Source: Myxococcota bacterium
Lineage (GTDB): Bacteria; Myxococcota; B64-G9
DNA length: 64,000 nt
Direction: 5' to 3'
Assembly: GCA_022710975.1 (NCBI GenBank)
Contig: JAKLGA010000004.1
Coordinates: 248,001-312,000 of the forward strand
This document shows positions 9,290 through 30,467 of this stretch, one piece after another. The position numbers were made by a program, and so were the translations under genes. The first letter of the stretch is position 1. Every line of letters starts with the position of its first letter. Below the pieces are notes generated by a model that searched no databases, was not told where the DNA came from, and saw nothing but the letters and a program-made list of their open reading frames with translations.

Positions 9290-9319
9290 GGCTGCCACCT
9301 CCGCGCCGGTCGTCGGTTC

Positions 9320-9348
9320 ATTGTTGCTGTAACTGGTGGAGCGGTCAA
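9320..9348 (-). promoter_or_regulatory. Promoter of the MopE-like gene
   Basis: Leftward TTGACC (9343-9348), 17 bases, AACAAT (9320-9325), giving a leader of about 25 bases before the TTG start. The 105-base divergent gap also holds a TAGACT (9358-9363) that could be the -10 for the rightward DUF362 gene, but I find no matching -35 for it. Confidence 0.45.
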
Positions 9349-9394
9349 GGCCTGGGGTAGACTGGGACGCCCGGAGGCAGGAGGAAGGCGGCGC

Positions 9395-13300: not shown

Positions 13301-14448
13301 CCACGCCAGGCACGGCCGACAACCTGCGGGCCGAGCTCAAGTTCGCCCCCACCAGCACCGAGGACGCCTACGCGCGCTTCGAGCGCAAGACCTTCAGCCC
13401 CGCCTCCAGCGGCGGTCCGGTGCCGCCGCTCGAGGCCTGGGAGCTCCTGGGCGGCGCGGCCAGCCGCTGGCTGCCCGGGCTGGTGCCCACCTTCAACACC
13501 AAGATCGGCTACCAGAAGGGCCTGCGCCCCTCGGCCAGCGGCCCCGGCCAGGCCTTCGAGACCGCGCAGTCCAACCTGTCGGGCGGCCTGGACGTGTTCC
13601 CCGGCCGCTGGCTGGACGCGCTGGCCTCCCTGCAGCTCTCCCTGGGCTACGGCTACACCATGGCCGAGGAGGCCGAGGAGGACGAGGGCGGCCTGCCCGG
13701 GCGGCTGGGCATGAAGGTCGACCAGGCCAAGCACCAGGTCGAGGCCAAGCTGGCCTACGGGCGCTACGACGAGGCCTGGCGCTTCGAGGGCCGCACCAAG
13801 TGGTGGACCGTGTCCGAGCAGGTGAGCCCGGACGAGACGCTGGAGACGGAGCGGACCCTGGAGGTGGTCAGCCGGCTGACCTACCGGCCGGTGTACACCT
13901 CCCCCATCACCGCCCGCCTGGACGCGACCCGCGCGGAGCTGTGGAACCCGGACCTGCTGCGCATGGGCGAGACGCTGCGCTTCGTGCCCGCGCTCGAGTG
14001 GGAGCGGCGCTGGTCGCGCGACCTGGTCAGCCGCCTGCGCTTCGAGGCGCCCATCCGCCTGGTGGACGGGGCCTGGGACGAGCTGGTCGAGCGCAGCCTC
14101 ACATTCAGCGACGTGGGGCTGACGCCCTGGGCCGAGCTGCGCTGGCGGGCGACCGAGCTGTGGGAGGGGAGCCTCGTCCGCCTGTCCTTCCGCGGCGCCC
14201 ACACCTGGGTGCTGCCCTACGAGCGGGGGGCGGGTGGCTCGGGCGCGGAGCGCTCGCGCGAGCTGCTGCTGGCCGGCTACCTGGACTGGGAGAGGCCCGG
14301 GGCGTTCCTGCTGCGCCTGGGGGTGCTGTACGTCTGGCACGTGTGCCAGGAGCTCGACCTGGCCGACACGGGCGCGGCCGACGAGGAGTGCCGGGCGCTC
14401 ACCCGGCACGCCATCCAGCCCAGCCTCAAGCTGCTGGCGCGCTTCTAG
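10321..14448 (+). CDS. Giant propeller / DUF6599-like / beta-barrel envelope protein
   Basis: The protein has 1375 residues, starting at GTG 10321 inside the previous stop, with a signal peptide ending PPAAA. Residues ~20-330 are two-component-type propeller blades (Reg_prop, e.g. FYTSADGLPSDRVRMV and VWVATPRGLARM). Residues ~380-560 are beta-rich and contain a DVDYIVTHTTGQVTF element like those in SprA-type surface proteins. Residues ~600-710 carry a DUF6599-like motif (MYAQIDGAAPKYLERG, then IHDMGSPENAASIFDY). From ~800 to the end, alternating strands (RLDGEYQSPDFDAL, KLAYGRYDEAWRFEGRTK) and a terminal Phe suggest an outer-membrane beta-barrel. The combination is unfamiliar to me. It may expose a periplasmic binding module through the outer membrane. 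Confidence 0.87.
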   Translation: MSGPRAALLLCAAVLCAAPPAAARYPRVARDAQGTWVATDGALLRVTDDLFTFYTSADGLPSDRVRMVTPDDREVWVATPRGLARMDRNAQRWEVLRAPDPLPSDDVRAVSVDDRSAWVATGAGAVRWDKVTKRWEAVDAPQGPGRGPVEDVLSLGQTVWFACGQELRVLDRGSQAWRRYGAAEGLAVGPLEELLQLGESLWVLGRDGLARLDLRAGSLSVFGPAQGLPAGRLTAFAQVQGEVWLAVGGRLVVYNPGSDALSPFMYAEGMPAGGVVGIEVSAPWVWVVTEHGVGLFNLLQRTWEQKREEDGLRPATFGGTALAGSMLVLLSADGYQGYQLQRDDWQAFSLEALQGGAGAGADPAGGARFHVEATLSVDSNVVRSSGAWSHDEQVLPDVRLGFGTPLEGGRSLDASLRVDLGDAMQSGVREYDAELRYRGSSEDLVRELILSDELRLHAEEGQHDLLDEIWLEGLGIYQRLGPARGRAPVSAELEAGLNRGVRAREFFRGTIDYTLQLEHPYVTPRSERVKVDGMLLERDVDYIVTHTTGQVTFLNPDRVNALSLVEVTYTYEQIPRKGSTAITLLELLPRDDELGAMKRSGSPAYVTDEGGMYAQIDGAAPKYLERGWVESVFQDYAQGSTKVSVQIHDMGSPENAASIFDYDRPLSYVVLWDEPDTIALLDQGLPAGYAVKMRLERYYVELSIDDKTKASEILIGLFAATIRAKGDLAGIQRDALRELVGRLHLGVSPHDAFGLGVGFLGAGDLEEPGLEALEPQRLELVSFDGWTRHGLGGGDWGGELASFFQLAQGRTTWAGGGQRSLGASGDVTYTSPALNVRLDGEYQSPDFDALGSRETALGTFQSELRGELALSPWRGLNLQLTYDRETSVLRPGLGAEGGQGLVENLVGRLSFVRDRWPTVWLLGARSVLSGGGHEDEKWRVAGSFEYDLAHGLLEVLGLKKLVVKAYYDRSENEVLEGPEPIDPRAAELWRALASTPGTADNLRAELKFAPTSTEDAYARFERKTFSPASSGGPVPPLEAWELLGGAASRWLPGLVPTFNTKIGYQKGLRPSASGPGQAFETAQSNLSGGLDVFPGRWLDALASLQLSLGYGYTMAEEAEEDEGGLPGRLGMKVDQAKHQVEAKLAYGRYDEAWRFEGRTKWWTVSEQVSPDETLETERTLEVVSRLTYRPVYTSPITARLDATRAELWNPDLLRMGETLRFVPALEWERRWSRDLVSRLRFEAPIRLVDGAWDELVERSLTFSDVGLTPWAELRWRATELWEGSLVRLSFRGAHTWVLPYERGAGGSGAERSRELLLAGYLDWERPGAFLLRLGVLYVWHVCQELDLADTGAADEECRALTRHAIQPSLKLLARF

Positions 14449-14524
14449 CGCGCCGCGGTTTGTGCTAGCTTCGGGCCACTGGACCCGAATCCCTCGGGGC
14501 GATGCACAGCGGGAGGAGTCGAAC

Positions 14525-15079
14525 ATGAAGCGGACCCTGGCGATCCTGGCGGTGGTGCTCCTGGCCTGCCCGTTCGCGGCCTGCGGCGGCGGGGGCGGGG
14601 GCGAGGCCGATCCGGTCGAGAGCTACGTGCCCACCTCGGGCGAGGTGAGCGGCTGGACCGAGGACACGGCCGCGGCCAACAACGGGGCGGCCGGAGCCGA
14701 GGTGTGCCGCGAGGCGGTCGGCATCCCTGACTTCATCGACGGCGCCATCGACCCGTTCGTGGACACGGGCGCCTGGGTGGCGGTGGCCTGGGAGTTCTAC
14801 ACGAACGGCACGAACACCCTCGAGCTGCGGCTCTACGAGATGGGCAACGCCAGCGCCTGCCAGGAGGTGTACGACTACCTGGCCACCCACCCCGAGGGGG
14901 TGGCCTGGCAGGCGGCCAGCCTGGGCGACGCCGGGCGCACCGCGGACCAGGGCCCCTACTGGAAGACCCACGCCCGCAAGGGCAACTACTTCGTCGAGAC
15001 CTTCACCTTCCCGGGCGACGAGCCCACCCAGCAGATCGCCGTGGACTTCGTCGGCGCGGTGCTGGCCGGGCTGCCCTGA
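14525..15079 (+). CDS. DUF6599-like lipoprotein
   Basis: The protein has 184 residues, with GGGAGGAG before the ATG. The signal peptide ends in FAAC followed by a run of Gly, so it is a lipoprotein with a flexible linker. The mature domain includes PDFIDGAIDPFVDTG, EFYTNGTNTLELRLYEMG and ASACQEVYDYLATHP. These parallel the IDGAA ... DMGSPENAASIF core of the preceding barrel protein and the YMDGGAELYL ... YRMGGPAEAF core of the DUF6599 protein at 26582. I therefore assign it to the same superfamily with moderate certainty. It lies between the barrel protein and the W/Mo importer in the same orientation. A hairpin with a TTCGGG/CCCGAA stem (14470-14489) and a TAGCTT (14466-14471) lie in its 76-base upstream gap. 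Confidence 0.8.
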   Translation: MKRTLAILAVVLLACPFAACGGGGGGEADPVESYVPTSGEVSGWTEDTAAANNGAAGAEVCREAVGIPDFIDGAIDPFVDTGAWVAVAWEFYTNGTNTLELRLYEMGNASACQEVYDYLATHPEGVAWQAASLGDAGRTADQGPYWKTHARKGNYFVETFTFPGDEPTQQIAVDFVGAVLAGLP

Positions 15080-15087
15080 GCCGCGCC

Positions 15088-16083
15088 TTGCCGCGTCCGT
15101 CCCGCCGCCCGTCCCGGGCGCTCGCGGTGCTCGCCGCGCTCGCCCCGGCGCTCGCCCTGGGCGCGGGGCCGGGCTGCCAGGGAGGCCGCGACCGGCCCGT
15201 GCTGGTGTTCCACGCCTCCAGCCTGTCGCGCGTGCTGGGCGAGGCCGAGCGCGTCCTGGAGGCGGCCGATCCGCGCCTGGACCTGGTGCTCGAGCCGAGC
15301 GGCTCCCAGGTGGCCGCGCGCAAGCTGGCCGAGCTCGGCCGTCCGGCCGACCTGGTGATCTCCGCGGACTGGCGGGTGCTGGACGAGCTGCTCGAGCCGG
15401 CCCACGCCCCCTGGGTGCTGGGGCTCGCCTCCAACGAGATCGTGCTGGCCTACGGCGAGCACAGCCCGGGCGCCGCGGAGCTGGACGCCGCCCGCTGGCC
15501 GTCCGTCCTGCTGCGGGACGGGGTGCGCCTGGGGCGGGTGGACCCGGACACCGCCCCGCTCGGCTTCCAGACCCTGGTGGTGTGGGAGCTGGCGGCCGCC
15601 GCCCTGGGCCCGCCCGACCTGGCCGCGCGCCTGGTGGCGCGCTGCGAGCCGGGCCGCGTCGTGGCGGACGCCGAGGAGCTGGTCGCGAGCCTCGAGGCGC
15701 GCGCCGTGGACTACGCCTTCCTGCAGCGCAACCTGGTCGAGGAGCACCGGCTGCAGGCCGTGCGGCTGGGCCCGGCCCTCGACCTGTCGCGCCCCGAGCG
15801 CGCCGCGGAGTACGCCCGGGTGCGGGTGCCTGTCAGGCTGCGCGCGGGCGAGCCCCCGGTCTCGCTGCCCGGCGCCCCGGCCGTCTACGGCCTGTGCGTC
15901 CCGCGCGTGGCCACGAACCCGGAGGGCGCGCTCGGCCTGGTCCGTTTCCTGCTCTCGCCCGAGGGCCGCCGGGCGCTCGAGCGCTCGGGCTTCACCCCGC
16001 TCCCACCCGCGCTGCTCGCCGGCCGGGGGCTGCCGCCGGGGCTGGCCGCCGACCCCGCGCCGACCGGGGAGGGCCCGCGATGA
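15088..16083 (+). CDS. wtpA: Tungstate/molybdate ABC transporter substrate-binding protein (WtpA/ModA type)
   Basis: The protein has 331 residues, starting at a TTG eight bases after the lipoprotein stop with no clear RBS. It opens with an Arg-rich n-region and a hydrophobic signal ending near GAGPGC, possibly a lipobox. The mature protein follows the WtpA pattern: VLVFHASSLSRVL, LVLEPSGSQVAARKLAELG, ADLVISADWRVLDELL, ASNEIVLAYGEHSPG. The C-terminal lobe holds FLLSPEGRRALERSGFTPL. WtpA-type proteins bind tungstate and molybdate in the periplasm. Sequence alone cannot tell the two anions apart. Overlap with the permease start (ATGA) shows translational coupling in a three-gene importer. Confidence 0.86.
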   Translation: MPRPSRRPSRALAVLAALAPALALGAGPGCQGGRDRPVLVFHASSLSRVLGEAERVLEAADPRLDLVLEPSGSQVAARKLAELGRPADLVISADWRVLDELLEPAHAPWVLGLASNEIVLAYGEHSPGAAELDAARWPSVLLRDGVRLGRVDPDTAPLGFQTLVVWELAAAALGPPDLAARLVARCEPGRVVADAEELVASLEARAVDYAFLQRNLVEEHRLQAVRLGPALDLSRPERAAEYARVRVPVRLRAGEPPVSLPGAPAVYGLCVPRVATNPEGALGLVRFLLSPEGRRALERSGFTPLPPALLAGRGLPPGLAADPAPTGEGPR

Positions 16084-17321
16084 GCGCCGGGCCCGCCCTG
16101 CTGCCGCGCTGGCCCAGGAGCCTGGGGGCCGTGGCCGCCCTCGGGCTCCTCCACCTCGGGCTCGCGCTGGTGCCCGGGCTGGGGCTCGAGCCGGAGACCA
16201 ACGTCCTGCTGTTCGCCGCGAACCTGTACGTGGCCTATGGCGGCTGGCTGGTCTTCCGGGACGGGCGCCTGGCGGCGGCGCTGGGCTTCGCCGCGGGCTA
16301 CCTGGCCCTGCTGGGGCTCCTGCTGCTCGTCCTGGAGCGCGAGTCGCTGTTCGTGTTGCTGGCCATCGCCTGGGCCAGCGTGTACCGGGTGCCCGTGCTC
16401 CGCTGGCTGGTGCTCCTGTTCGTGCTGTGCTACGTGGTGCTGCAGCCCTACGCCTTCGAGTGCTTCCTGCCGCTGGCGCTGGCCGTGCTGGCCGTGCACG
16501 GGCTCCGGCGGACCGGGGCGGACCGTTTCCGGGTGGCCTGCCTGAGCCTGGGGCTGTTCGTGCTGGCCGCCCTGCTGCTGCCGGTCCTGCACCTGGTGAG
16601 CCAGGACTCGCCCCAGACGCTGCTGGCCACCCTGGCGCGCCCGGACGTGCTGGACGCGCTGGGCAGCAGCCTGGCCACGGCCGGGCTGGCCACGCTGCTG
16701 GTGCTGCTGGGCGGCGTGCCGCTGGCCTACGCGCTGGCCCGGGGGCGCTTCCGCGGCCGCGGGGCGGTTGAGGTGCTCGTCGATCTCCCCATCCTGATCC
16801 CCCAGTCGGTGGTGGGGGTCGCCATCCTGGTGCTGCTCGGGCCGGGCAGCCCGCTGGGGCGCGGGCTGGAGGAGCTCGGGCTGGGGGTGGCCGGACGCTT
16901 CGCCGGCGTGGTGCTGGTGCAGGCCTTCGTCTCCTACCCGTTCCTGGTCAAGGCCGCGCTGACCGCCTTCGAGGGCGTGCCCACCTCGCTGGAGGACGCC
17001 TCGCGCTCGCTGGGGGTCGGCCCCTGGGGCACCTTCTGGCGGGTGTCCCTGCCGCTGGCGGCGCGCGGCGTGCTGACCGGCGTCGCGCTGGCCTTCGCCC
17101 GGGCGGTGAGCGAGTTCGGGGCGCTCTTGCTGGTCGCGCCGCAGCCCGAGACCGGCCCCGTGCTGGTGCACCGGACCTTCCTGCAGGGCGGGGTGGCCGA
17201 CAGCCGGCCGGTGGCCGTGGTGCTGGTGCTGGTGTGCCTGTGGGTGTTCGTGCTGCTGCAGTTCGGGCGCGCCTTCCTGCCCGGCGCGCCGCGCGGCGGG
17301 GCGGGGGAGGTGCCGCGGTGA
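16080..17321 (+). CDS. Tungstate/molybdate ABC permease with extra N-terminal membrane domain
   Basis: The protein has 413 residues, while WtpB/ModB permeases are about 230-280. The C-terminal part (from ~175) is a standard permease: SLATAGLATLLVLLGGVPLAYALARG, LPILIPQSVVGVAILVLLG, and the EAA-type loop TSLEDASRSLGVGPWGTFWRVSLP that docks with the ATPase. The N-terminal ~165 residues add about five hydrophobic helices (ALGLLHLGLALVPGLGL, NVLLFAANLYVAYGGWLVF, FAAGYLALLGLLLLVL, and others) with no recognised domain. The start ATG overlaps the substrate-binding gene stop, and the stop overlaps the ATPase GTG. No frameshift separates the two halves. Confidence 0.88.
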   Translation: MSAGPALLPRWPRSLGAVAALGLLHLGLALVPGLGLEPETNVLLFAANLYVAYGGWLVFRDGRLAAALGFAAGYLALLGLLLLVLERESLFVLLAIAWASVYRVPVLRWLVLLFVLCYVVLQPYAFECFLPLALAVLAVHGLRRTGADRFRVACLSLGLFVLAALLLPVLHLVSQDSPQTLLATLARPDVLDALGSSLATAGLATLLVLLGGVPLAYALARGRFRGRGAVEVLVDLPILIPQSVVGVAILVLLGPGSPLGRGLEELGLGVAGRFAGVVLVQAFVSYPFLVKAALTAFEGVPTSLEDASRSLGVGPWGTFWRVSLPLAARGVLTGVALAFARAVSEFGALLLVAPQPETGPVLVHRTFLQGGVADSRPVAVVLVLVCLWVFVLLQFGRAFLPGAPRGGAGEVPR

Positions 17322-18034
17322 TCGAGCTGCGCGGCTTGACGCTCTCGCTGGGCGCCTTCGCGCTCCGCGATCTCAGCCTGACGGTGCCCGCCGGCGGCTA
17401 CACGGCCGTGCTGGGCCCGAGCGGCAGCGGCAAGAGCGTGCTGCTGCGGCTGGTGGCCGGGCTGCTCGCGCCCGAGCGCGGGGAGGTCCGCCTGGACGGC
17501 CGGGACGCCACGCGGCTGCCCAGCGAGCGCCGCCGGCTGGGCTTCGTCTTCCCGGAGGCGGCCCTGTTTCCGCACCTCGGCGTCGGCCGGAACATCGCCT
17601 ACGGGCTCGGCGCGGCGGGCCTGCCGGCCGCGTCCCGCGCCGCCCGGACGCGCGAGATCGCCCGGGCGCTGGGGGTGGAGGCCCTGCTCGGCCGGCCGGT
17701 CCAGGGCCTCAGCGGCGGGGAGGCGCAGCGCGTGGCGCTGGCCCGCGCGCTGGCGCCCGCGCCGCGGGTGGTGCTGCTGGACGAGCCGCTGGCCCACCTG
17801 GACCCGCCGGCCCGGGAGGAGCTGCGCGCGGAGCTCACCCGGCTGCACCGGGAGCTCGGCTTCACCGCGCTGCACGTGACCCACGATCAGGCCGAGGCGC
17901 GCGCGCTCGGCCAGCGGCTGGCGGTGCTGCGCGAGGGGCGCCTGGTCCAGGAGGGGCCCCGCGACGAGGTGCTGGCCCGGCCGGCGGACGAGTTCGTGGC
18001 GCGCTTCCTGGGCGCCGGGGCCGCGGCGGGCTGA
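17318..18034 (+). CDS. Tungstate/molybdate ABC transporter ATP-binding protein
   Basis: The protein has 238 residues, starting at GTG 17318 overlapping the permease stop. It has Walker A GPSGSGKS (33-40), signature LSGGEAQRVALARAL (from 131), Walker B VVLLDEP (151-157) and the switch His in HVTHDQAEA (H189). The Q-loop position, normally Gln in VFQ, is Pro here (GFVFPEAALFPHL, P79), which is unusual because that Gln contacts the magnesium and the permease. All other catalytic elements are intact and there is no C-terminal TOBE/Mop regulatory domain, so the protein is shorter than ModC or CysA. It powers import with the two preceding proteins. Confidence 0.92.
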   Translation: MIELRGLTLSLGAFALRDLSLTVPAGGYTAVLGPSGSGKSVLLRLVAGLLAPERGEVRLDGRDATRLPSERRRLGFVFPEAALFPHLGVGRNIAYGLGAAGLPAASRAARTREIARALGVEALLGRPVQGLSGGEAQRVALARALAPAPRVVLLDEPLAHLDPPAREELRAELTRLHRELGFTALHVTHDQAEARALGQRLAVLREGRLVQEGPRDEVLARPADEFVARFLGAGAAAG

Positions 18035-18047
18035 GCGGAGGGCGGGC

Positions 18048-19094
18048 GTGGACGCGAACTACCTGCCGCTGTGGAAGACGCTGGACACGCCCTTCGTGTC
18101 CCTCGACCAGAGCCACGTCGAGCTCTTCAGCCTGCTGGCCCTGCTGGGGCTGTGCCTGCTGGCCATGCTCGTCCGCCGCCGCCGCCAGGTCCTGCGCCAC
18201 GCGGTGCAGCTCGTGTCCCTGGTGATCTTCTTCTACGTGGTCTACTCCTGCCTGGGCGTGTTCGGCATGATCCGCAACGCGCTGCACGGGACCACGCTGC
18301 TGGGCACGGTGTTCACCGAGGCCTTCTTCTGGATGGCGCTGCCGGTGGTGGTGCTGGGCTTCAGCCTGACGGCCGGGCCCTACTTCTGCGGCTGGATCTG
18401 CCCGACCGGCACCCTCCAGGAGCTGGTCGTCATCCCCCGCGAGGCGCTGCTCAGCTGGCTGCGACGGCGCGGGCGCCTGGCCCCGGCGGGCGGCCGGCCG
18501 GGCGTGGCGCGGCTGCTCCTGGTCGGGCTGGTCCTGGCCGGCTTCCTGGTGGCGGTCTTCTACCTGGGCGGGACGAAGCGCTTCTACGTCGAGGACTCGA
18601 GCCTGTACTGGGGCGCGGCCCTGGTGCTGCTCGTCTTCCTGGTGGGCGCGGGCCGGGCGGACGATCAGGCCCTGCGCGCGCTGCGGGCGGTGAGCTTCTG
18701 GATCATCGTCGGCTCGGCGCTGCTGAAGAGCATGATCGTCTCGCCGGTGCACTTCGCCTTCGCCGACGTGCGCGATCCCGCCTCCGCGCTGACCACGCTG
18801 GTGCTGGTGGTGGCCTCGCTGTTCCTCAGCCGGGCCTGGTGCCGCTACGTCTGCCCCTGGGGTTACCTGATGGGCTGCGCCCACCGCGTCTCCCGCCTGC
18901 GGGTGGAGCCGGCCGGTGCCTGCGAGGGCTGCGACACCTGCGCGGGCGTCTGCCGGGTGGGCGCGGTTCAGCGCGGGGTCGTGCGGGTGGACGCCTGCCA
19001 GATGTGCCTGGCCTGCGTGGACAGGTGCCCCAGGGGGAACCTGCGCGTGGTGGACCGCTGGGCCCCGCCCGGGGGGCGTGGGGGCCCCCCGTGA
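18048..19094 (+). CDS. NapH-like membrane polyferredoxin (first copy)
   Basis: The protein has 348 residues, with GTG at 18048 after GGAGGG. About five to six membrane helices surround two CxxxCP motifs (FCGWICPTG and WCRYVCPWG), which in NapH, NosR and CcoG relatives sit at the membrane face. A C-terminal ferredoxin-like part carries CEGCDTCAGVC and CQMCLACVDRCP, enough for two [4Fe-4S] clusters. Such proteins pass electrons across or along the cytoplasmic membrane to periplasmic or cytoplasmic partners. It follows the ABC transporter by 13 bases and its stop overlaps the propeller gene start, so it belongs to the same operon. The Gly/Pro end is probably disordered. Confidence 0.92.
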   Translation: MDANYLPLWKTLDTPFVSLDQSHVELFSLLALLGLCLLAMLVRRRRQVLRHAVQLVSLVIFFYVVYSCLGVFGMIRNALHGTTLLGTVFTEAFFWMALPVVVLGFSLTAGPYFCGWICPTGTLQELVVIPREALLSWLRRRGRLAPAGGRPGVARLLLVGLVLAGFLVAVFYLGGTKRFYVEDSSLYWGAALVLLVFLVGAGRADDQALRALRAVSFWIIVGSALLKSMIVSPVHFAFADVRDPASALTTLVLVVASLFLSRAWCRYVCPWGYLMGCAHRVSRLRVEPAGACEGCDTCAGVCRVGAVQRGVVRVDACQMCLACVDRCPRGNLRVVDRWAPPGGRGGPP

Positions 19095-20584
19095 GGCCGC
19101 CCGCCGCCCTGGCGGCGCTGGCGCTGCTGGGCCTGGCCGCGGGCGCGCGGGCCGAGGCGTACTTCCCCGAGGGCGCGCGCGTCCGGCCGGGCGACTGGCC
19201 GCTCCCGCGCCACGATCCCCAGAACCGGGCCGCGGCGGAGCTCGGCGGGACCGAGGCGCCGCGCGGCTGGACCTTCGAGCCCGCCCGCCACCCCTTCGGC
19301 TACCAGCCGGGCCTGCCGGTGTGGTCCTCGCCCGCCCTCGGCCGGGTGGGCGGCCGGGCGGTGCTGGCCATCGGCTGCCACGACCGCAACCTGTACCTGC
19401 TGGACGCGGCCACGGGCCAGGAGCTGTGGCGCTACACCGCGGGCGGGGTGGTGGCCGGGGCGCCGCTGCTGTGGTGGGACGGCGCGCGCCACCTGGTGCT
19501 GGCCGCCTCCAGCGACCGGCAGGTCTTCGCCCTGGACGGCGAGAGCGGGGCGCGGGTGTGGGCCGCGGCGCTCGAGCCCTGGACCCCCTCCCTGGGCGGG
19601 GCGCGCCTGTCGGCCCCGGCCATGTGCTGGGTGGCGGGCCGGCCCGCGGTCGTGGTGGGCCACTGGTTGTGGGACAAGTCGCTGGCGGGCAACCGCCAGG
19701 CGGCCGGGCTGAGCGCGCTGGACGCCCGCAGCGGCGCGCGCCTGTGGCGCACCGAGTTCCTGGACAACCGCGTGGGGGATCCGCTGTGCGTGCGCGTCGA
19801 CGGCCGCGGGCTGGTGCTGGCCGCCTCCCTGGACGGCAACCTGCGCGCGCTCGAGGCCGACACCGGCGCGCTCGCCTGGAGCCTGCGCGAGACCCTGCCC
19901 ATCGCCGGGGCGCCGGGCTTCAGCGACGGGCCCGAGGGCCCGCGGGTGGTGGTGGGCTCCCACTTCGGCAAGCTGCGGGCCCTGGACGCCCGCAGCGGGG
20001 CGGAGGTGTGGAGCCACAAGGTCGGCCAGTGGCTCACGGCCGCACCCGCGCTGCTCGAGGACGGCGGGCGGCGCCTGTGGGTGGCGGGCGCCTTCGACGA
20101 TCGGGTGCACGCCGTGGACGCGCTGAGCGGCGCCCCGGCCTGGCGGCACGCGCTGGGCGGGCCGGTCTACTCGTCGCCCGTGGTGGTGCCCACCGAGGGC
20201 GAGCCCACCCTGGTCGTGGCGGCCGAGGACCACCAGCTCCACGGCCTGGCCGCCCGCGACGGGGTCGGGCTGTGGAGCGTGTTCACCGGCGCCCCGCGCT
20301 GGGACGGTGTGCCGCTGGGCGAGACGCCCTGGGGCTCTCCGGCCGCGGCCCGCCTCGGCGGTCGCTGGATGATCTACTTCGGCTCCTACGACGGGGTGCT
20401 GTACGCCTTCCCCCTGAGCCAGGCGGTGGCGCTGGGCCCGTCCCCGCCCTGGTCGGGCCTGCGCTTCTGGCTGACCATGGCCGGCGTCCTGGTGGGCACG
20501 GCCGGGCTGGCGCTGGGGCTCAGCCGGCGGGCCGCCCGGCTGCGGCGCGCGCGGGGCTCGACCGACGCCAGGGCGATGCCGTAG
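19091..20584 (+). CDS. PQQ-type beta-propeller protein with C-terminal membrane anchor
   Basis: The protein has 497 residues, with GTG at 19091 overlapping the previous stop. A signal peptide (AALALLGLAAGARAEA) is followed by about seven to eight PQQ_2 blades with the usual signatures (LYLLDAATGQELWRY, VFALDGESGARVWAA, LSALDARSGARLWR, VHAVDALSGAPAWRH, LHGLAARDGVGLWS). A hydrophobic helix (FWLTMAGVLVGTAGLALGL) and a basic tail end it, so the propeller faces the periplasm on a C-terminal anchor. No dehydrogenase active-site Cys pair is evident, so a scaffold or assembly role seems more likely than PQQ catalysis. Its position between two NapH-like proteins suggests it docks with one or both. Confidence 0.88.
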   Translation: MRPPAALAALALLGLAAGARAEAYFPEGARVRPGDWPLPRHDPQNRAAAELGGTEAPRGWTFEPARHPFGYQPGLPVWSSPALGRVGGRAVLAIGCHDRNLYLLDAATGQELWRYTAGGVVAGAPLLWWDGARHLVLAASSDRQVFALDGESGARVWAAALEPWTPSLGGARLSAPAMCWVAGRPAVVVGHWLWDKSLAGNRQAAGLSALDARSGARLWRTEFLDNRVGDPLCVRVDGRGLVLAASLDGNLRALEADTGALAWSLRETLPIAGAPGFSDGPEGPRVVVGSHFGKLRALDARSGAEVWSHKVGQWLTAAPALLEDGGRRLWVAGAFDDRVHAVDALSGAPAWRHALGGPVYSSPVVVPTEGEPTLVVAAEDHQLHGLAARDGVGLWSVFTGAPRWDGVPLGETPWGSPAAARLGGRWMIYFGSYDGVLYAFPLSQAVALGPSPPWSGLRFWLTMAGVLVGTAGLALGLSRRAARLRRARGSTDARAMP

Positions 20585-20587
20585 ACT
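20558..20587 (+). promoter_or_regulatory. Possible internal promoter before the second NapH-like gene
   Basis: TCGACC (20558-20563), 18 bases, TAGACT (20582-20587), nine bases before the ATG at 20597, which has no Shine-Dalgarno sequence. The first three bases of the -10 are also the stop codon of the propeller gene, so this could be chance. Confidence 0.28.
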
Positions 20588-20596
20588 GCTGGCCCG

Positions 20597-21589
20597 ATGG
20601 CTCGAGGCATGGGACACATCACCCGCCTGCGCTGGATCGTGCGCTTCGCCGCCTTCGCGCTGCTCTTGTACGGCGGCTTCGCCCTGGCAGGCCTGGACGC
20701 GGCCACGCGCCTGGCCGGGCTCCGGCAGACCAGCGCGCCGGTGGCCGCCCCCGCCGGGCGGGTGAAGCCGGTGCCCGGGCGGCCGTCCGCCTCCCAGGTG
20801 GTGCTCCCGGCCACGGTGTGCATCTACCAGCGCCAGGGGCTGTGCCGCGGCTGCAGCCTGTACTTCGTCTCGGATCTCCTGACCTGGCAGCCGCCGCTCG
20901 AGCGCTTCGGCCCCTACCTGCTGCTGCTCCTCCTGGCGATGCTGCTGGCGGGCAGGCTGTGGTGCGGCTGGGTGTGCCCGCTGGGGCTGGTGAGCGATGT
21001 CCTCACCCGCCTGCGGGTGGCGGTCGGGCTGCGGCGCCTGCGGCTGTCGGCCCGCGCGCGCGACGGGCTGGTGTGGGCCAAGTACACGCTGCTGGTGCTG
21101 GCGCTGGGGGTGGCCGCCCTGGCCTCGCTGCCCGGGCTGGCGGAGGCGCGCATCTCGCTGATGGACCCCTTCTGCCGGGTGTGCCCGGCGCGCATCTTCA
21201 CCCCCTTCTTCACCCTCGATGACCTGTGCTGGACCGATCTGTCCACCTCGACCGCCAGCGTGTTCACCGTCCTCGGGCTGCTGGCCTTCGGGCTGTTCTT
21301 CCTGGGGCTGGCCATCCGGCGGTTCTGGTGCCGGCTGTGCCCGGTGGGGGGTCTGTCGGCGCTGTTCAACCGCACCGGCCTGGTGTCGCTGGTCAAGGAC
21401 GGCTCGCGCTGCGTGCGCTGCGGCGCCTGCGAGCGGGTGTGCCCCCTGGACGTGCGCCGGGTGCGGGAGGCGGAGCACGGGGTGGTGACCTCCTACGAGT
21501 GCCACCTGTGCCTGCGGTGCGTGGAGGCCTGCCCCGAGCCAGGCTGCCTGCGCTTCCACTGGCTCGGGCGGAAGGTGACCGGCTCATGA
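20597..21589 (+). CDS. NapH-like membrane polyferredoxin (second copy)
   Basis: The protein has 330 residues. The N-terminal helix is followed by a periplasmic stretch holding CIYQRQGLCRGCSLYFVSD, an extra Cys set not seen in the first copy. Next come membrane helices with WCGWVCPLG and WCRLCPVGG, a lone DPFCRVCPARIF motif, and a C-terminal ferredoxin with CVRCGACERVCPLD and CHLCLRCVEACP. This supports two [4Fe-4S] clusters plus possible extra metal sites. An ATG four codons downstream (20609) could be the true start. The stop overlaps the ATG of the HgdB-like gene (ATGA), which ties this membrane protein to that iron-sulfur protein as a likely electron donor and acceptor pair. Confidence 0.9.
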   Translation: MARGMGHITRLRWIVRFAAFALLLYGGFALAGLDAATRLAGLRQTSAPVAAPAGRVKPVPGRPSASQVVLPATVCIYQRQGLCRGCSLYFVSDLLTWQPPLERFGPYLLLLLLAMLLAGRLWCGWVCPLGLVSDVLTRLRVAVGLRRLRLSARARDGLVWAKYTLLVLALGVAALASLPGLAEARISLMDPFCRVCPARIFTPFFTLDDLCWTDLSTSTASVFTVLGLLAFGLFFLGLAIRRFWCRLCPVGGLSALFNRTGLVSLVKDGSRCVRCGACERVCPLDVRRVREAEHGVVTSYECHLCLRCVEACPEPGCLRFHWLGRKVTGS

Positions 21590-22890
21590 CCGCCATCCGT
21601 CCGCCGTCCGCCCCGGCGCTGGCCGCGGCCTGCCGCGAGGCGGCGGAGCGCAGCCTGGCCCGGCTGGAGGCGCGCCCCGGCCGGCCCGCGGGGCTGAAGC
21701 CCTTCTACGCGTGGCTGCGCCAGGGGGCGGCCACCGCCGAGGCTGGCGGGGCGCCGCTGGTCGGCCAGGTGTGCAACTTCCTGCCCGAGGAGCTGGCCCT
21801 GGCCGCGGGGGTGCGACCCGTGCGGCTGGAGGTCGGCTGCCAGGCGGCGGTCGAGGCGGCCGGCTCCGAGGTGTCTCCGGACGGGGTGTGCTGCGCCGTG
21901 CGCGCGCTCCTGGGCGGGCTGGGGACGGGCCCCCTGGGGTTCACCCGGCTGGACCTGGTGGTGGTGCCGGCCGCGTGCGACGGCAAGCGCAAGCTGGCCG
22001 GGTTGCTCGCGCGGCGCTCCGGGATGGAGGTCGTGGCCCTCGAGCTGCCTCGACGGAAACGCGACCCGGCCTCCGCGGAGCGTTTCGTCGAGGAGCTCCG
22101 CGCGCTGCTCGCGCGGCTGGAGCGGCTGGGCGGGCGCCGGGCCGGGCGGCGGGAGCTGGCCGCGGCGATCGCGCTCATCCAGCGCCGGGCCGCAGCCTTC
22201 CGCGGACTCCAAGACCTGCGGCGGGCCGCGCGGCCGCCGCTCGGGGCCGCCGAGCTGTTCGCCGTGGCCCAGTCCGCGTTCCTGGCGGACACGGCCGGGT
22301 GGGTGGCGCAGGCCGAGGCCCTGCTGGCCGAGCTCCGGGCCGGGCCGCCGCCGTCGGGGCCGCCCCCGGTGCGGTTGCTGCTGACCGGCGCCCCTGTCCT
22401 GTGGCCGGACTTCGAGCTGCTGCTGGCGGCCGAGGAGGCCGGGGCGGACTTCGTGGCCGACGACCTGTGCTCGGGCTCGGAGCGGCTGGCGCACCCACCG
22501 GTCGTGGACGAGCCCACCCGGGACGGGCTGCTGCGCGCCGCCGCCGAGCGCGTGCTCCAGCCCTGCACCTGCCCCTGCTTCGCCGAGCACGAGGATCGCC
22601 CGCGGCGGGTCCTGGAGCTGGCCCGCCAGTCCGGCGCGCAGGGCGTGGTGCACCACACCCTGCGCGGCTGCGCCCTGTTCGAGCTGGAGAGGGCCGAGCT
22701 GCTGGCGGGCCTGCAGCTGCATGGCCTGCCGTCGCTCAGCCTGACCGCCGAGTTCGGGCTCCAGGAGGGCGGCATGCTGCGCAACCGCCTGGACGCCTTC
22801 GTCGAGGTGGTGCGCGGGCTGGCTGGATCCTCGAGCCTGGTTCTCAAGGCGAAGAGGATCCCGTCCAGTGAGCGGAGCGAGCCGGGCTAG
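21586..22890 (+). CDS. 2-hydroxyacyl-CoA dehydratase D-family (HgdB/double-cubane type) protein
   Basis: The protein has 434 residues. The fold and Cys pattern match the HgdB/BcrB/YjiM family: VGQVCNFLPEELALAAGVRP near the N terminus, then GVCCAVRALLGG, VPAACDGKRKL, ADDLCSGSERL and a late PCTCPCF, with YWG-like blocks absent. Relatives are alpha/beta subunits of 2-hydroxyacyl-CoA dehydratases and benzoyl-CoA reductases, or single-subunit double-cubane [8Fe-9S] proteins that reduce small molecules using an ATP-dependent activator. No second subunit and no HgdC-type activator ATPase lie nearby, so the double-cubane type is more likely. Substrate unknown. It ends the rightward operon, and its stop overlaps the convergent gene by four bases. 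Confidence 0.82.
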   Translation: MTAIRPPSAPALAAACREAAERSLARLEARPGRPAGLKPFYAWLRQGAATAEAGGAPLVGQVCNFLPEELALAAGVRPVRLEVGCQAAVEAAGSEVSPDGVCCAVRALLGGLGTGPLGFTRLDLVVVPAACDGKRKLAGLLARRSGMEVVALELPRRKRDPASAERFVEELRALLARLERLGGRRAGRRELAAAIALIQRRAAAFRGLQDLRRAARPPLGAAELFAVAQSAFLADTAGWVAQAEALLAELRAGPPPSGPPPVRLLLTGAPVLWPDFELLLAAEEAGADFVADDLCSGSERLAHPPVVDEPTRDGLLRAAAERVLQPCTCPCFAEHEDRPRRVLELARQSGAQGVVHHTLRGCALFELERAELLAGLQLHGLPSLSLTAEFGLQEGGMLRNRLDAFVEVVRGLAGSSSLVLKAKRIPSSERSEPG

Positions 22891-25494: not shown

Positions 25495-26589
25495 ATGCAG
25501 GACGGTCAGGGCAGAGGTGGACGGGCAGGGCGGCAGGGCGGGTTGAGCCGGCGGCGATTCCTGGCCGCGGTGGGGGGAGGCGCGGCCGCGCTGGGCGCCG
25601 CGGCCTGCCTGCCCCACGTGTCGGGCGAGTGGGGCACCTGCAGCGAGCCGGACGGCGGCGGCGCCGACGGGGCGCAGGATGGTGGCGGGGGCGCTCCGCC
25701 CGCGCCGCTCTCCAACCGGGTGGTGGAGATCGCCCCCCCGGGCCTGGTGGATCCGGACACCCTGCTCATCGACACCACCCGGCTGCCGGAGCTCCTGTCC
25801 GCCGGCCTGCTGGCCCTGACCGGCGCGGCCAGCCTGGCCGAGGCCTGGCAGGTCGTGCTGCCCGGGCGCCTGCCCGGGGAGCGGGTGGGGCTCAAGGTCA
25901 ACACCTTGAACGCGCGGGTGTCCTCCTCGCCCGCCGTGGTCAGCGCGCTGGTGGCCTCGCTGCGGGCCGACGCGGGCGTCCCGGACGCCGAGCTGCTCGT
26001 GTGGGACCGCAGCCTGCGCGAGCTCACCCGGGCCGGCTTCGACGGGGCGGCGCTGGGCTGCTCGCTGGTCGGCACCCAGGCCTCCTCCACGGACCCGACC
26101 GGCCCGGGCTACCTGCGCGAGTCCGTGTGCCTGTCGGGGCGGCAGATCTACCTGTCCAGCGTGCTGACGGCGGGGCTCGAGCACCTGATCAACGTGGCGG
26201 TGATGAAGAACCACCTGGCGGCCGGCTTCACCGGGGTGCTCAAGAACCACTACGGCTCCTTCTCCAGGCCGGAGGACTTCCACGAGGGCTGCGAGCAGCA
26301 CATCGCCAGGCTGAACGCGCTGCCCGCCATCGCGTCGAAGAGCCGGCTGCACGTGCTGGATGCCCTGGTCGGGGTGTGCGCCGGCGACACGGCCGACCCG
26401 CCCGACTGCGCCCCGGGCAAGCTGCTGCTCGCCTTCGATCCCGTGGCCCTCGACCGGCGCGGGGTGGAGGTGCGGGACGAGGTCCGCGCGGCCAGGGGCG
26501 CCCCGCCCGGAGCGCCCGCGGCTTATCTGGAGCTGGCGGCCGAGCTGGGTCTGGGCTCCCTCGAGTACGACCTCGTGCGGATCACCTGA
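25495..26589 (+). CDS. Tat-exported DUF362 lipoprotein (second copy)
   Basis: The protein has 364 residues, from the ATG at 25495 after GAGGTGAGG; the frame is open further upstream but without an RBS. The signal combines a twin-arginine motif (LSRRRFLAAVGGGAAALG) with a lipobox (GAAAC), so the protein should be exported folded and lipid-anchored. An Asp/Gly/Ala linker follows. The DUF362 core shows VGLKVNTLNA, SPAVVSALVASLRADAGVP, LINVAVMKNHLAAGFTGVLKN (the counterpart of the LPVAKAHD/GLKNLMG blocks) and LLLAFDPVALDRRGVEV. It faces the leftward DUF6599/DUF362/polyferredoxin genes and overlaps the DUF6599 stop by eight bases. Confidence 0.9.
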   Translation: MQDGQGRGGRAGRQGGLSRRRFLAAVGGGAAALGAAACLPHVSGEWGTCSEPDGGGADGAQDGGGGAPPAPLSNRVVEIAPPGLVDPDTLLIDTTRLPELLSAGLLALTGAASLAEAWQVVLPGRLPGERVGLKVNTLNARVSSSPAVVSALVASLRADAGVPDAELLVWDRSLRELTRAGFDGAALGCSLVGTQASSTDPTGPGYLRESVCLSGRQIYLSSVLTAGLEHLINVAVMKNHLAAGFTGVLKNHYGSFSRPEDFHEGCEQHIARLNALPAIASKSRLHVLDALVGVCAGDTADPPDCAPGKLLLAFDPVALDRRGVEVRDEVRAARGAPPGAPAAYLELAAELGLGSLEYDLVRIT

Positions 26590-27475
26590 GCTTGGCCAGC
26601 CAGGCGGCGGCCTCGGTGGCGTCCCTGGCCCCGCCCACCCAGCGCAGCACCGCCCCCTCGACGCGCACGAGCTGGTGGGTCTCGTCCGGCCCCACGCCGG
26701 CCAGGCCGCCGTCCGCGGGCTTCAGGCCGAGCTTCTGGCCCAGCGCCTGCGCCGCCGCTCCGGCCGCGGTGGGGCTGGGGTAGGCAGCCCGGGTGAGCTG
26801 CAGGTCCCCGTCCGCGCCGGGGTACAGGGCCAGCACGGCCTGGCCGCCCCCCTCGAACAGGACGTCGGCCTCGCCCTCGAGCCACAGGGTGCGCGCGGTG
26901 TCGGGGTGCACCAGGTAGCGCTGGCTGCCCGGCAGCGCGCCCTCGGGCAGGTGCGCCAGCTCCGCCGGGGGCAGGCTGTCACCGGGCAGGCGGGCGTAGG
27001 TGGCCCGGCCGAGCGCGAGCAGGGCGGCGGTCGCCTGTGTGGCCGGGGTCTCGGCCACCACGCGGACGTAGAAGCGCCCGCGGAAGAAGCTCAGCATCCC
27101 GTTCGTCAGGCTGGCCGGGCCGCCCACGTCCTGGGCCGTGCCCCGCCCGCCGAAGGCGCAGATGCCGAAGGCCTCGGCCGGGCCGCCCATGCGGTAGATG
27201 GCCACGCGCGCGCTCGCGTCGCCGAGGCGGTAGCGGCGCACGCCCAGCTCGTCGAACCCGAAGCCCAGGTAGAGCTCCGCCCCGCCATCCATGTAGTCGA
27301 ACAGCCTCCGTCCCACGAAGTGCTCGGCCGGCTCGCCGGGCACGATGCCCAGGGCGGCGTCCGCGCCCGGCAGCAGCGCGATCACCTGGGGGGGCTCTGC
27401 GCCGGCGGCCGGGGCGGCGGGCGCGGACAGACACAGGAGCGCGGCCAGGGGTGTCCAGGCGAGTGCGGTGCGCAT
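26582..27475 (-). CDS. DUF6599 family exported protein
   Basis: The protein has 297 residues, with a signal peptide ending PAAPAAGA. The core reads RRLFDYMDGGAELYLGFGF, then VRRYRLGDASARVAIYRMGG and EAFGICAFGGRG, which is the DUF6599 pattern (Y-x-hydrophobic-x-G-A-A, Y, then YxMG followed by A). A second half (YLVHPDTARTLWLEGEAD onward) is beta-rich. No function is established for the family. The gene is three bases from the stop of the DUF362 gene at 27479, with which it is co-transcribed, and its end overlaps the convergent DUF362 lipoprotein gene. Export suggests it works in the periplasm. Confidence 0.87.
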   Translation of the reverse strand: MRTALAWTPLAALLCLSAPAAPAAGAEPPQVIALLPGADAALGIVPGEPAEHFVGRRLFDYMDGGAELYLGFGFDELGVRRYRLGDASARVAIYRMGGPAEAFGICAFGGRGTAQDVGGPASLTNGMLSFFRGRFYVRVVAETPATQATAALLALGRATYARLPGDSLPPAELAHLPEGALPGSQRYLVHPDTARTLWLEGEADVLFEGGGQAVLALYPGADGDLQLTRAAYPSPTAAGAAAQALGQKLGLKPADGGLAGVGPDETHQLVRVEGAVLRWVGGARDATEAAAWLAKLR

Positions 27476-27478
27476 GCG

Positions 27479-28405
27479 TCAGACCTCGAGGCGCTGGATC
27501 TGGTCGTCGGGCAGGCCGAGCTGGCCCACGCCCATGTCCTGGCAGCGGGCCAGGTGCTTGATCTGCCGGGGCTTGATCTTCCGGTCGTAGAGCGGCGCCA
27601 GCTCCACGCCGGCCGCGTCCACCGCCACCAGGTCGCTGCCGGCCAGGATGGCGTTGGTGGTCTCGAGCTTGCCCGGCCCGGAGGGCCCGCCCGAGGTCAT
27701 CACCTGCAGCCCGTCCAGCACGGTGAGCTGCGCCTTGAGGAGCGTGTTGAGATCGGCCACCGCCTGGTTGAGGTCCAGCTCCGAGTGGAAGATCTCGCGG
27801 TCGTGCACCAGGCCCATCATGCCCTTGGCCGCGCCGGAGAAGCCGGCCGCCGAGTGGCTCTTGGCGATGGGCGCGGCGATGAGCACGTCCGCCTCCAGCG
27901 CCTCCTTGAGCACCCGGGTGCGCTTCAACGACTTGCCCCTGGGGACGTCCACCTGGACGTAGAACTTCTCGTCCATGGGCAGCAGCACGTGGACGTCCAG
28001 CCCTGCGAGCGCCGCGCGGATGCCGTTCTGCTGCAGGCAGGCCTCCGGGGCGCGCATGGGGTTGTCCATGACCATCACCCGGGCGGCGCCGGCCTCGAGC
28101 ACCTCGCGCACCACGGCCGCGACCACGCGCGGATCCGTGGTGGCGCGCACGGCCGGCGCGGTGGGGAAGCCCATGTTGGGCTTGATGAGCACCCTGGCGC
28201 CCTTCTTCACGAAGGCGGCCATGCCGCCCAGCGGGGCGAGCGCCTTCTTGACGGCGCCGGCCACGTCGGCCGGTACCCCCGGCCCGCGCACCTGGACGAG
28301 CTGCAGCTTGCCCGCGGCCCGCGAGAGGCTCGGCCGACCCAGGGCCAAAGCCGCCGCGGTCAGCGCGGCCTGCCTGAGGAAGTCGCGACGCGAGGAGTCG
28401 GACAT
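27479..28405 (-). CDS. Tat-exported DUF362 protein (third copy)
   Basis: The protein has 308 residues, with a strong GGAGGT before the ATG (28403-28405). It has a twin-arginine signal (SSRRDFLRQAALTAAALALG). The core contains VLIKPNMGFPTAPAVRATTD, VVAAVVREVLEAGAARVMVM, DVLIAAPIAKSHSAAGFSGA, AKGMMGLVHDREIFH and AGSDLVAVDAAGVEL. It is closer to the copy at 9395 than to the lipoprotein copy at 25495: both share the TDPRVVAAV/HPAVVAEV block, the SAGLKNLMG/GAAKGMMG block and a late LVAVDAAG/PVALDALA block. It lies 80 bases downstream of the polyferredoxin gene and directly upstream of DUF6599, forming one leftward unit. Confidence 0.92.
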   Translation of the reverse strand: MSDSSRRDFLRQAALTAAALALGRPSLSRAAGKLQLVQVRGPGVPADVAGAVKKALAPLGGMAAFVKKGARVLIKPNMGFPTAPAVRATTDPRVVAAVVREVLEAGAARVMVMDNPMRAPEACLQQNGIRAALAGLDVHVLLPMDEKFYVQVDVPRGKSLKRTRVLKEALEADVLIAAPIAKSHSAAGFSGAAKGMMGLVHDREIFHSELDLNQAVADLNTLLKAQLTVLDGLQVMTSGGPSGPGKLETTNAILAGSDLVAVDAAGVELAPLYDRKIKPRQIKHLARCQDMGVGQLGLPDDQIQRLEV

Positions 28406-28485
28406 GTTCACCTCCGCCCTGACGCGGGCCAGTCTACCCGATCCCGACGCGCCAGACCACGCCGGTATGCACACGGCGTCGGGCC

Positions 28486-30339
28486 TCAGGCGTCGGGGTC
28501 GATGCCGGGCGGCAGCGCGGGCAGGGCGTCGTCGCCCTCGGCCTCGATGCCTGGCGGCAGCGCGGGCTTGCCGTCCGGTCCAGGCGGGGCGTCGGGGCCG
28601 GGGTAAGGGAGCCCGGGCTCGAGCCGCTGCGGCGCGTCGCCAGCCCTGGGCCGCGGGTCGAAGACCTGGTCGGGGAGCGCCCCGCCCTTGGCCTGGAAGT
28701 CGTAGCCCAGCAGCGCCGCCTCGGCCACGTAGGAGCCCGTGGCCAGGCGCAGCTCGCCGTGGGGGGTGACCAGGATGGCGGCCTCGCCGGCCACCGGGCA
28801 GCGCTTCTCGCAGGTGCCGCAGCCCGCGCAGCGCTTCTGCTCCACCACCGGCAGGCCCGCCTTGTGGGCGGCGTCGCGCACCGCGTAGATGGCGTTGTAC
28901 GGGCAGACCTCGTCGCAGATCAGGCAGCGCCGGTCCTGGGCCCAGGCGATGCAGCGCTCCTTGCGGATGACCGCCGTGCCGAGCTTGGCGTGCTGTTTCT
29001 CTGGCAGCGGCAGCGCGCGGATGGCCCCGGTCGGGCACACCTGGCCGCACACGTGGCAGGTGTGCTCGCAGGAGCCCTGGCGCATGACCGCGACCGGCGT
29101 CCACAGCCCCTCCAGGCCGGTGCGCTGCCAGTCCGGCTGCAGGCAGTTGGTCAGGCAGGCGCGCATGCACTCACCGCAGCGCACGCAGCGGTCGAGGAAC
29201 TCCGGCTCGGGCACCGCCCCGGGCGGCCGCAGCACGTCCGCGTGGGGCCGCTGGCCGGGGCGGGGGTGGGCGCGGTCGGCGCCGAGCGGCAGGCCGGCCG
29301 CCAGACCGCCCAGCGCCGAGGCCAGGAAGCCGCGCCGGGCGAGCCCGGGGCCGGGCCGGGCCGCGTCCGTGTCCGCCTTCCGCGCGGCGAAGCCGAAGCG
29401 GATGGCGTCCTCCGGGCACACGCCCGCGCACCCCCGGCACACGATGCACTCGTGCCGGTCGAAGGCCTTGCCCCCCTCGTGGATGGCGCCGGTCGGGCAG
29501 GCGCGGGTGCAGCGGTTGCAGGCGGTGCAGCTCTCGTTCACCCGCCGGCGGTAGGGCGCGAAGCGCCCCAGCCAGCCCAGGCCCGAGCCCAGCGGGCACA
29601 GGTGGCGGCACCAGAAGCGCGGCTGGAGCCGGCCGAGCAGCAGCAGCGCGGCCAGCAGCAGGAAGGTCCAGGCCGCGCCGTCGAAGGCCGGGCTGGGCAG
29701 CTCGGTGTACTGCAGACCGATCCAGCCCAGCCACTCGGACACCGGCCGCAGGGCGTCCAGGCCGGCCGACTGCAGCAGCAGGCCGAAGGGGTAGAACAGC
29801 ACCGCGGCGAAGCGGGTGGCCAGCGCGATCGGGTCCACGAAGCCGAGCAGGTTCGTGCCGGCCAGGCCGGCGAACAGCAGCACCAGCAGCACCGCGTGCT
29901 TGGCGGGCCGGGCGCGCAGGTAAGACTCGCGGTTCTCCTTGAGCCCCTGGCGCCGGCCGAGGAAGCGGTCCGACAGGTCGAGCAGCGCCCCCAGCGGGCA
30001 GGCGTGCGAGCAGAACACCCGGCCCATGACGACGCTCACGGCCACGAGCAGCAGCGACAGGAGGCAGGCGGTCTCCAGCGCGCGCGCGGCCAGGCCCTGC
30101 ACCACGGCCACCAGCGGGTCGATGCGCAGGAAGCTCTCCACCCCCCAGCCCGGCCGGCCGTCGTAGGCGGCCAGCCACAGGAGGCCGACGAACAGGGCGG
30201 CGAAGCCCACCTGGAACCCGCGCCGCGCGTCCCAGCGGAGGCCGGCCAGCACGGCCAGGGCCAGCCCGAGCCCGAGGAAGGCGAAGGCGGGGTGGAAGCC
30301 CGAGGCGGCCACCGCGGCCGCGGGTGCGCTGGTCGGCAT
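28486..30339 (-). CDS. NapH-NapG-like fused polyferredoxin
   Basis: The protein has 617 residues. The N-terminal ~230 residues hold five to six membrane helices and two CxxxCP motifs (FCSHACPLG, FWCRHLCPLG), as in NapH. A ferredoxin part follows with CTACNRCTRACPTGAI and CIVCRGCAGVCPEDAI. Then an internal Tat-like stretch (LARRGFLASALGGLAAGLPL) leads into a NapG-like part with CVRCGECMRACLTNCLQP, CEHTCHVCGQVCPTGAI, CLICDEVCPYNAI and CAGCGTCEKRCPV, for up to six [4Fe-4S] clusters in all. The end is a Pro-rich tail with a duplicated ALPPGI. It could carry electrons from membrane quinol to the periplasm. The ATG lacks an RBS and lies seven bases after a -10, so I prefer it over an upstream in-frame TTG that belongs to the -35. 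Confidence 0.93.
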   Translation of the reverse strand: MPTSAPAAAVAASGFHPAFAFLGLGLALAVLAGLRWDARRGFQVGFAALFVGLLWLAAYDGRPGWGVESFLRIDPLVAVVQGLAARALETACLLSLLLVAVSVVMGRVFCSHACPLGALLDLSDRFLGRRQGLKENRESYLRARPAKHAVLLVLLFAGLAGTNLLGFVDPIALATRFAAVLFYPFGLLLQSAGLDALRPVSEWLGWIGLQYTELPSPAFDGAAWTFLLLAALLLLGRLQPRFWCRHLCPLGSGLGWLGRFAPYRRRVNESCTACNRCTRACPTGAIHEGGKAFDRHECIVCRGCAGVCPEDAIRFGFAARKADTDAARPGPGLARRGFLASALGGLAAGLPLGADRAHPRPGQRPHADVLRPPGAVPEPEFLDRCVRCGECMRACLTNCLQPDWQRTGLEGLWTPVAVMRQGSCEHTCHVCGQVCPTGAIRALPLPEKQHAKLGTAVIRKERCIAWAQDRRCLICDEVCPYNAIYAVRDAAHKAGLPVVEQKRCAGCGTCEKRCPVAGEAAILVTPHGELRLATGSYVAEAALLGYDFQAKGGALPDQVFDPRPRAGDAPQRLEPGLPYPGPDAPPGPDGKPALPPGIEAEGDDALPALPPGIDPDA

Positions 30340-30375: not shown

Positions 30376-30467
30376 GCGATCCCGGGCCGGGCGGCCCGGA
30401 GGAAGGCTGGCCGCGGGCGGGTTCTCGGGTTAGGATGGAGCCGAGGGATCTCTGCGAGGAGGCGAGC

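Follow-up and report, generated by a model that had tools for sequence, protein, structure and literature searches.

The analysed window is a 64,000-nucleotide stretch (C24:248001-312000) of a Myxococcota genome of 7.13 Mb with a G+C content of 73.7%, and it carries two clusters of DUF362, DUF6599 and NapH-like genes (Table 1). In cluster B, a co-directional run on the minus strand from 30339 to 26582 holds the NapH-NapG fusion (NapHG), DUF362c and DUF6599, with about 80 bases between DUF362c and NapHG and 3 bases between DUF6599 and DUF362c; the plus-strand gene for DUF362b is convergent with this run. This is the second DUF362/DUF6599/polyferredoxin set that a first-pass annotation had placed at 25495-30339 without mention of strands, and all of its genes are present with the ends it had assigned. 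Cluster A occupies the plus strand at 9395-22890, from DUF362a to the HGD-D protein, and additionally holds a tungstate-type ABC transporter, a PQQ-type propeller and two NapH-like proteins. The HGD-D protein matches NF040772 at 194 bits, below the cut-off of 350, and adjoins the two NapH-like proteins. Cys/Asp-rich repeat proteins at 7061-9268 (minus strand) and 30435-33575 (plus strand) flank the clusters, the former with repeats of the CDGLDNDCDG type found in MopE-like proteins. An Rfam scan of the window gave no match.

Table 1. Genes of the two clusters, with positions in the window.
Feature	Position	Strand	Match
NapH-NapG fusion polyferredoxin, 617 aa	28486..30339	-	NapG and NapH models both match
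DUF362c, 308 aa, twin-Arg signal, LarA-like predicted fold, His184/Lys194/His207	27479..28405	-	PF04015, 161.7 bits
DUF6599 protein, 297 aa, N-terminus signal peptide-like, two lobes	26582..27475	-	PF20244, 91.8 bits
DUF362b, 364 aa	25495..26589	+	PF04015, 60.8 bits
DUF362a, 309 aa	9395..10324	+	
1375-aa secreted protein with DUF6599 domain at aa 611-727	10321..14448	+	PF20244, 33.2 bits
Small lipoprotein-like protein, distant DUF6599-type domain	14525..15079	+	transitive evidence only
WtpA-like solute-binding protein, tungstate-type	15088..16083	+	below curated cut-off
ABC permease, WtpB-like	16080..17321	+	
ABC ATPase, WtpC-like	17318..18034	+	
NapH-like membrane ferredoxin 1	18048..19094	+	
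Beta-propeller protein, PQQ/BamB-type	19091..20584	+	
NapH-like membrane ferredoxin 2	20597..21589	+	
HGD-D protein, double-cubane-cluster type	21586..22890	+	

The DUF362 proteins of the window score 60.8 to 161.7 bits, above the PF04015 cut-off of 24 bits, and the DUF6599 protein of cluster B and the 1375-aa protein both exceed the PF20244 cut-off of 27 bits. DUF362b begins with an RR-x-F motif followed by a hydrophobic segment. In the 1375-aa protein, repeats resembling a propeller and a probable barrel accompany the DUF6599 domain, which is the only part with a family match; the domain sits between the repeats and the barrel-like part, and SprA is matched weakly over a short stretch. A DUF362 gene directly adjoins the gene for a protein of this type in nearly every genome seen. 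The small protein encoded at 14525-15079 has no Pfam match, stays under the PF20244 cut-off, scores weakly with a profile built without it and was joined to the family by iterated profiles. The first-pass annotation had counted DUF362, DUF6599-like modules and NapH-like proteins three times each within 21 kb; the three DUF362 and three NapH-like proteins stand, and the third DUF6599-like module is linked transitively only. The whole genome encodes eight DUF362 and three DUF6599 proteins, and because three of the former and two of the latter lie in the window, the clustering is not due to chance (about 0.02 DUF362 expected per 21 kb).

The WtpA-like protein, putatively of the tungstate type, scores 154 bits against a WtpA equivalog cut-off of 242.75. 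Four AOR-family tungsten-type genes lie elsewhere in the genome (C8, C28, C10 and C29; L179-L182), and their products could plausibly be the clients of the WtpABC-like transporter, whose presence therefore does not show that the module uses tungsten.

The fusion is built of a NapH-like membrane part, an internal twin-Arg segment at about residue 335 and a NapG-like part, and six 4Fe-4S motifs were recognised by inspection. The internal segment (...LARRGFLASALGGLAAG...) is weakly hydrophobic, with a mean hydropathy of 0.99, and a regular expression finds such a twin-Arg segment in 16 of 39 matches, the window included. Both halves fall below the NCBIfam equivalog cut-offs (95.4 against 269 for NapG; 92.7 against 234 for NapH), and there was no nitrate reductase gene among the genes scanned. 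A fused polyferredoxin of the delta proteobacterium MLMS-1 was shown to need both Sec and Tat (PMC5449189), and the same internal twin-Arg arrangement suggests that the NapG part here lies outside the membrane. Since NapGH is a quinol dehydrogenase in E. coli and Wolinella (cited in PMC5449189), it is reasonable to infer that NapHG exchanges electrons with quinones.

In six other Myxococcota genomes (L099, L100, L103, L104, L105 and L107) clusters A and B are contiguous over about 10 kb, in the order 1375-aa-type protein, DUF362a, DUF362b, small protein, DUF6599, DUF362c and NapHG. The L107 locus also contains WtpA, and in L068 the row comprises DUF362a, the large protein, WtpA, WtpB, WtpC, NapH1 and the PQQ-type protein. 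Most simply, clusters A and B can be read as pieces of a single ancestral locus, opened up in the window. Several paralogues within 21 kb are also what recent tandem duplication without any shared function would leave; this explanation is extremely improbable, as the paralogues are divergent (DUF362a 39% and DUF362b 28% identical to DUF362c) and each position is kept across families, and it was rejected because gene order is conserved.

Phylogenetic profiling across 195 Myxococcota genomes, an approach the first-pass annotation had suggested, recovered DUF6599 in 24, DUF362 in 68 and NapHG-like fusions in 33. DUF6599 overlaps with DUF362 in 22 of its 24 genomes (p 1e-9) and with the fusion in 21 of 24 (p 7e-17), both p values ignoring phylogeny. 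DUF362 does not imply DUF6599, since 46 of the 68 genomes have DUF362 alone. All 50 genomes of a second sample, to which named DUF6599 loci had led, also have DUF362; this sample lies mostly outside Myxococcota, was chosen by DUF6599 and is rich in Aminicenantes. Besides the window, at least 14 Myxococcota genomes have DUF6599, DUF362 and NapHG in one contiguous stretch; the three are also near one another in MAGs of Zixibacteria, Acidobacteria and Latescibacterota, and in a Zixibacteria MAG they form a contiguous triad. An IMG/VR scan found no DUF6599 relative and therefore no sign of phage carriage.

The neighbourhood of DUF6599 was further surveyed in the 53 loci flanked on each side by 2.5 kb of sequence or more. 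DUF362 lies within 2.5 kb in 38 of them and NapHG in nine. NapH is a common partner in Myxococcota and a minority partner elsewhere, where other proteins stand in for it: an AmmeMemoRadiSam-type radical-SAM protein together with a SpdSyn-like membrane protein occurs in 25 of the 53 loci, and an aldo/keto reductase with a ferredoxin tail in nine. Judged by a simple motif rule, 47 of 68 Myxococcota DUF362 domains are preceded by a twin-Arg motif; in Aminicenantes-type loci it was found on the radical-SAM protein (25/34) and on none of 41 DUF362 proteins, and 18 of 20 aldo/keto reductases carry it, suggesting an Fe-S partner with an export signal as the common theme of these loci. At L124:3587-6849 and in other Aminicenantes loci, the twin-Arg AmmeMemoRadiSam-type protein adjoins DUF362/DUF6599 and is followed by the SpdSyn-like membrane protein; export would be unusual for a radical-SAM enzyme. 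Twin-Arg aldo/keto reductases with C-terminal ferredoxin domains flank DUF6599/NapHG loci of Latescibacterota and Acidobacteria (L130:6586-7815; L143:3802-5031 and 8918-10186).

These data bear on whether all three families belong together, as the first-pass annotation had proposed in treating them as one functional unit. DUF362 and DUF6599 form a robust unit, and the gene unit as a whole is well supported; what did not hold is the constancy of NapH. The counter-case named there, families occurring mostly without NapH-like neighbours, was found in part for NapH and was not found for the DUF362-DUF6599 pair. DUF362 and DUF6599 could accordingly be the real functional pair, with NapHG as a general electron-transfer protein that only happens to lie near them often, a reading compatible with either view of the cofactor discussed below. 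We consider it less likely than not. Around a third DUF362-DUF6599 pair in the same genome (L012), the 8-10 kb of flanking sequence examined on each side contain no NapH; in the window's own family, all other genera have their closest NapHG on a different contig (L083-L090); and the low NapHG count elsewhere points the same way. Against this stand a triad that is contiguous in a Zixibacteria MAG and in 15 or more Myxococcota genomes (the window included), the DUF6599-NapHG co-occurrence and, in L088, a distance of about 8 kb between NapHG and the Wtp/small-protein genes.

The AlphaFold model of DUF362c (pLDDT 94) allowed the family to be placed structurally. Foldseek returned 18 matches at E<0.001, all to the family of LarA, lactate racemase (LarA or malate racemase type); the LarA N-terminal domain fold was recognised at E 3e-8. 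A VIA comparison with LarA gave Z 18.9 and an rmsd of 2.8 over 210 residues, aligning model residues 41-275 with LarA residues of about 31-270, against Z of at most 5.6 for unrelated folds. A LarA-like N-domain fold of DUF362 is thus well supported by structure prediction. Profile alignment with hhalign (E 1.5e-5) sets DUF362 H184, K194 and H207 on LarA H174, K184 and H200, with a spacing of H-x9-K-x12-H versus H-x9-K-x15-H in LarA homologues from relatives. K194 and H207 are kept in 55 of 55 DUF362 sequences and H184 in 54 of 55, and all three are invariant (24/24) in a second, more divergent set. In LarA, His174 is catalytic, Lys184 tethers the nickel-pincer nucleotide (NPN) and His200 binds nickel (PMC7583248, PMC12611868). 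The profile alignment gave no conserved DUF362 equivalents of LarA Asp72, Arg75 and the second catalytic His108, and the LarA C-terminal domain with Lys298 is absent from DUF362c. LarA relatives missing catalytic residues may carry out other hydride-mediated reactions (PMC7583248). The window DUF362 falls under the curated Pfam Lar_N cut-off (17 bits versus 23.3), and sequence searches of the PDB found no relative of DUF362 or DUF6599. In the open-access literature searched, the only tie between DUF362 and NPN was that DUF362 had served as an outgroup.

The genome encodes LarC, a LarE that scores above its cut-off, and, beside LarC, a LarB recognised by sequence inspection; the LarB-LarC pair lies at C25:185000-197000 (L187). 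No Lar_N match was found in the genome, so LarA was not detected. The sensitivity of Lar_N is imperfect, as it gave no match in C. glutamicum, for which a LarA homologue has been reported (PMC7583248). Reportedly, about 15% of genomes, many of them cyanobacterial, have larB, larE and larC but no larA, from which it was concluded that an unidentified NPN protein exists, expected to have a fold distinct from LarA (PMC11796402). DUF362 as that protein would be distinct in sequence but LarA-like in its N-domain. The control genomes of S. elongatus and H. volcanii contain DUF362 and LarC and no Lar_N, and H. volcanii larBCE were independently listed as possibly serving an unknown enzyme (PMC8305020). 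Among the LarA-negative Myxococcota listed, DUF362 occurs in seven of nine genomes with strong LarC versus none of 11 without (p 5e-4); the exceptions, G044 and G193, have LarC and LarE with both Lar_N and DUF362 absent. The correlation is confounded, since almost all genomes of the phylum have LarC (175 of 195) and the LarC-negative set includes small reduced genomes. Phylum-wide LarC profiling is of little use alone for the first of these reasons. LarE was looked for in 15 genomes and follows LarC there. In the 50 DUF6599-selected genomes, LarC was found in 41 and Lar_N in 37, so this set does not separate the two.

NPN is thus a plausible candidate for the DUF362 cofactor. The alternative, to which we give roughly a one-in-three standing, is that DUF362 has a LarA fold with a different cofactor (another metal or an Fe-S partner), its His-Lys-His a different metal or substrate site, and that LarBCE serve something else. 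It would account for the loss of D72, R75, H108 and the C-terminal domain, for the Fe-S clusters carried by the redox partners seen, and for the Bacteroides ihuae control, which has DUF362 without LarC and does not fit the NPN reading. Against it, the NPN-thioamide Lys and the nickel-binding His are kept without exception at equivalent places, and LarB, LarC and LarE are present where LarA is not detectable.

The DUF6599 model (pLDDT 92) has two lobes, both similar to folds of periplasmic sensor or binding proteins. The N-lobe resembles PknH (Z 12.5), and the C-lobe resembles TiME and RseB/MucB at Z 8-10, not far from what common arrangements give as background. In-frame TGA codons in DUF6599 matches of six genera had raised selenocysteine as a candidate, which was rejected: the true gene ends there and the match runs past it.

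The reading we favour, at somewhat below even odds, is an envelope redox module in which a LarA-fold, most likely NPN-bearing DUF362 works with NapHG, leading to the quinone pool, and with DUF6599 as partner. It builds on the gene unit, the family assignments, the predicted fold, the invariant residues and the presence of LarB, LarC and LarE; NPN loading, electron flow, the reaction and the role of DUF6599 are what we infer from them. DUF362 would be exported folded by Tat with its cofactor tethered. This cofactor would most likely be NPN supplied by LarB, LarE and LarC of the same cell, with Lys194 as its attachment point and His207 as the nickel ligand. Because DUF362 lacks the second catalytic His and the C-terminal lid domain, it would probably not racemise its substrate, a small hydroxy or carbonyl compound, but carry out hydride chemistry in one direction. 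NapHG would carry electrons across the membrane between the DUF362 site and the quinone pool, in either direction. DUF6599, a near-constant and putatively periplasmic partner, may, at a guess, be a substrate binder or a lid over the open active site. More tentative is the wider proposal that DUF362 is the NPN user in LarA-less, NPN-making genomes, acting here as a periplasmic oxidoreductase coupled by the polyferredoxin to the quinone pool with DUF6599 as partner subunit.

DUF362 is widespread, often multi-copy and without assigned function, and the LarA-like model with its invariant cofactor-binding Lys and His makes the question of NPN use testable with existing co-expression systems. If the proposal is true, it would give DUF6599 its first functional context and, to our knowledge, link NPN chemistry to an electron-transport chain for the first time.

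Compared with known systems, DUF362 shares with the LarA superfamily of nickel-dependent 2-hydroxyacid racemases (DUF2088, PF09861) the predicted N-domain fold, the NPN-tether Lys, the nickel-ligand His and one catalytic His, and the two belong to a common Pfam clan, CL0471 (PMC11770544). It differs from LarA in being shorter, without the C-terminal domain, D72, R75 and H108, and, in the window, in its predicted Tat export and its link to a polyferredoxin. The lobes of DUF6599 are predicted to resemble the PknH sensor domain and the C-terminal domains of RseB/MucB/TiME, but no sequence relation was found, and a shared fold shows no function. NapHG shares with the MLMS-1 Sec-Tat polyferredoxin the NapH-NapG fusion and the internal, weakly hydrophobic twin-Arg segment, whereas it differs from NapGH in its scores, far below the NapH and NapG cut-offs, and in having DUF362 and DUF6599 as neighbours.
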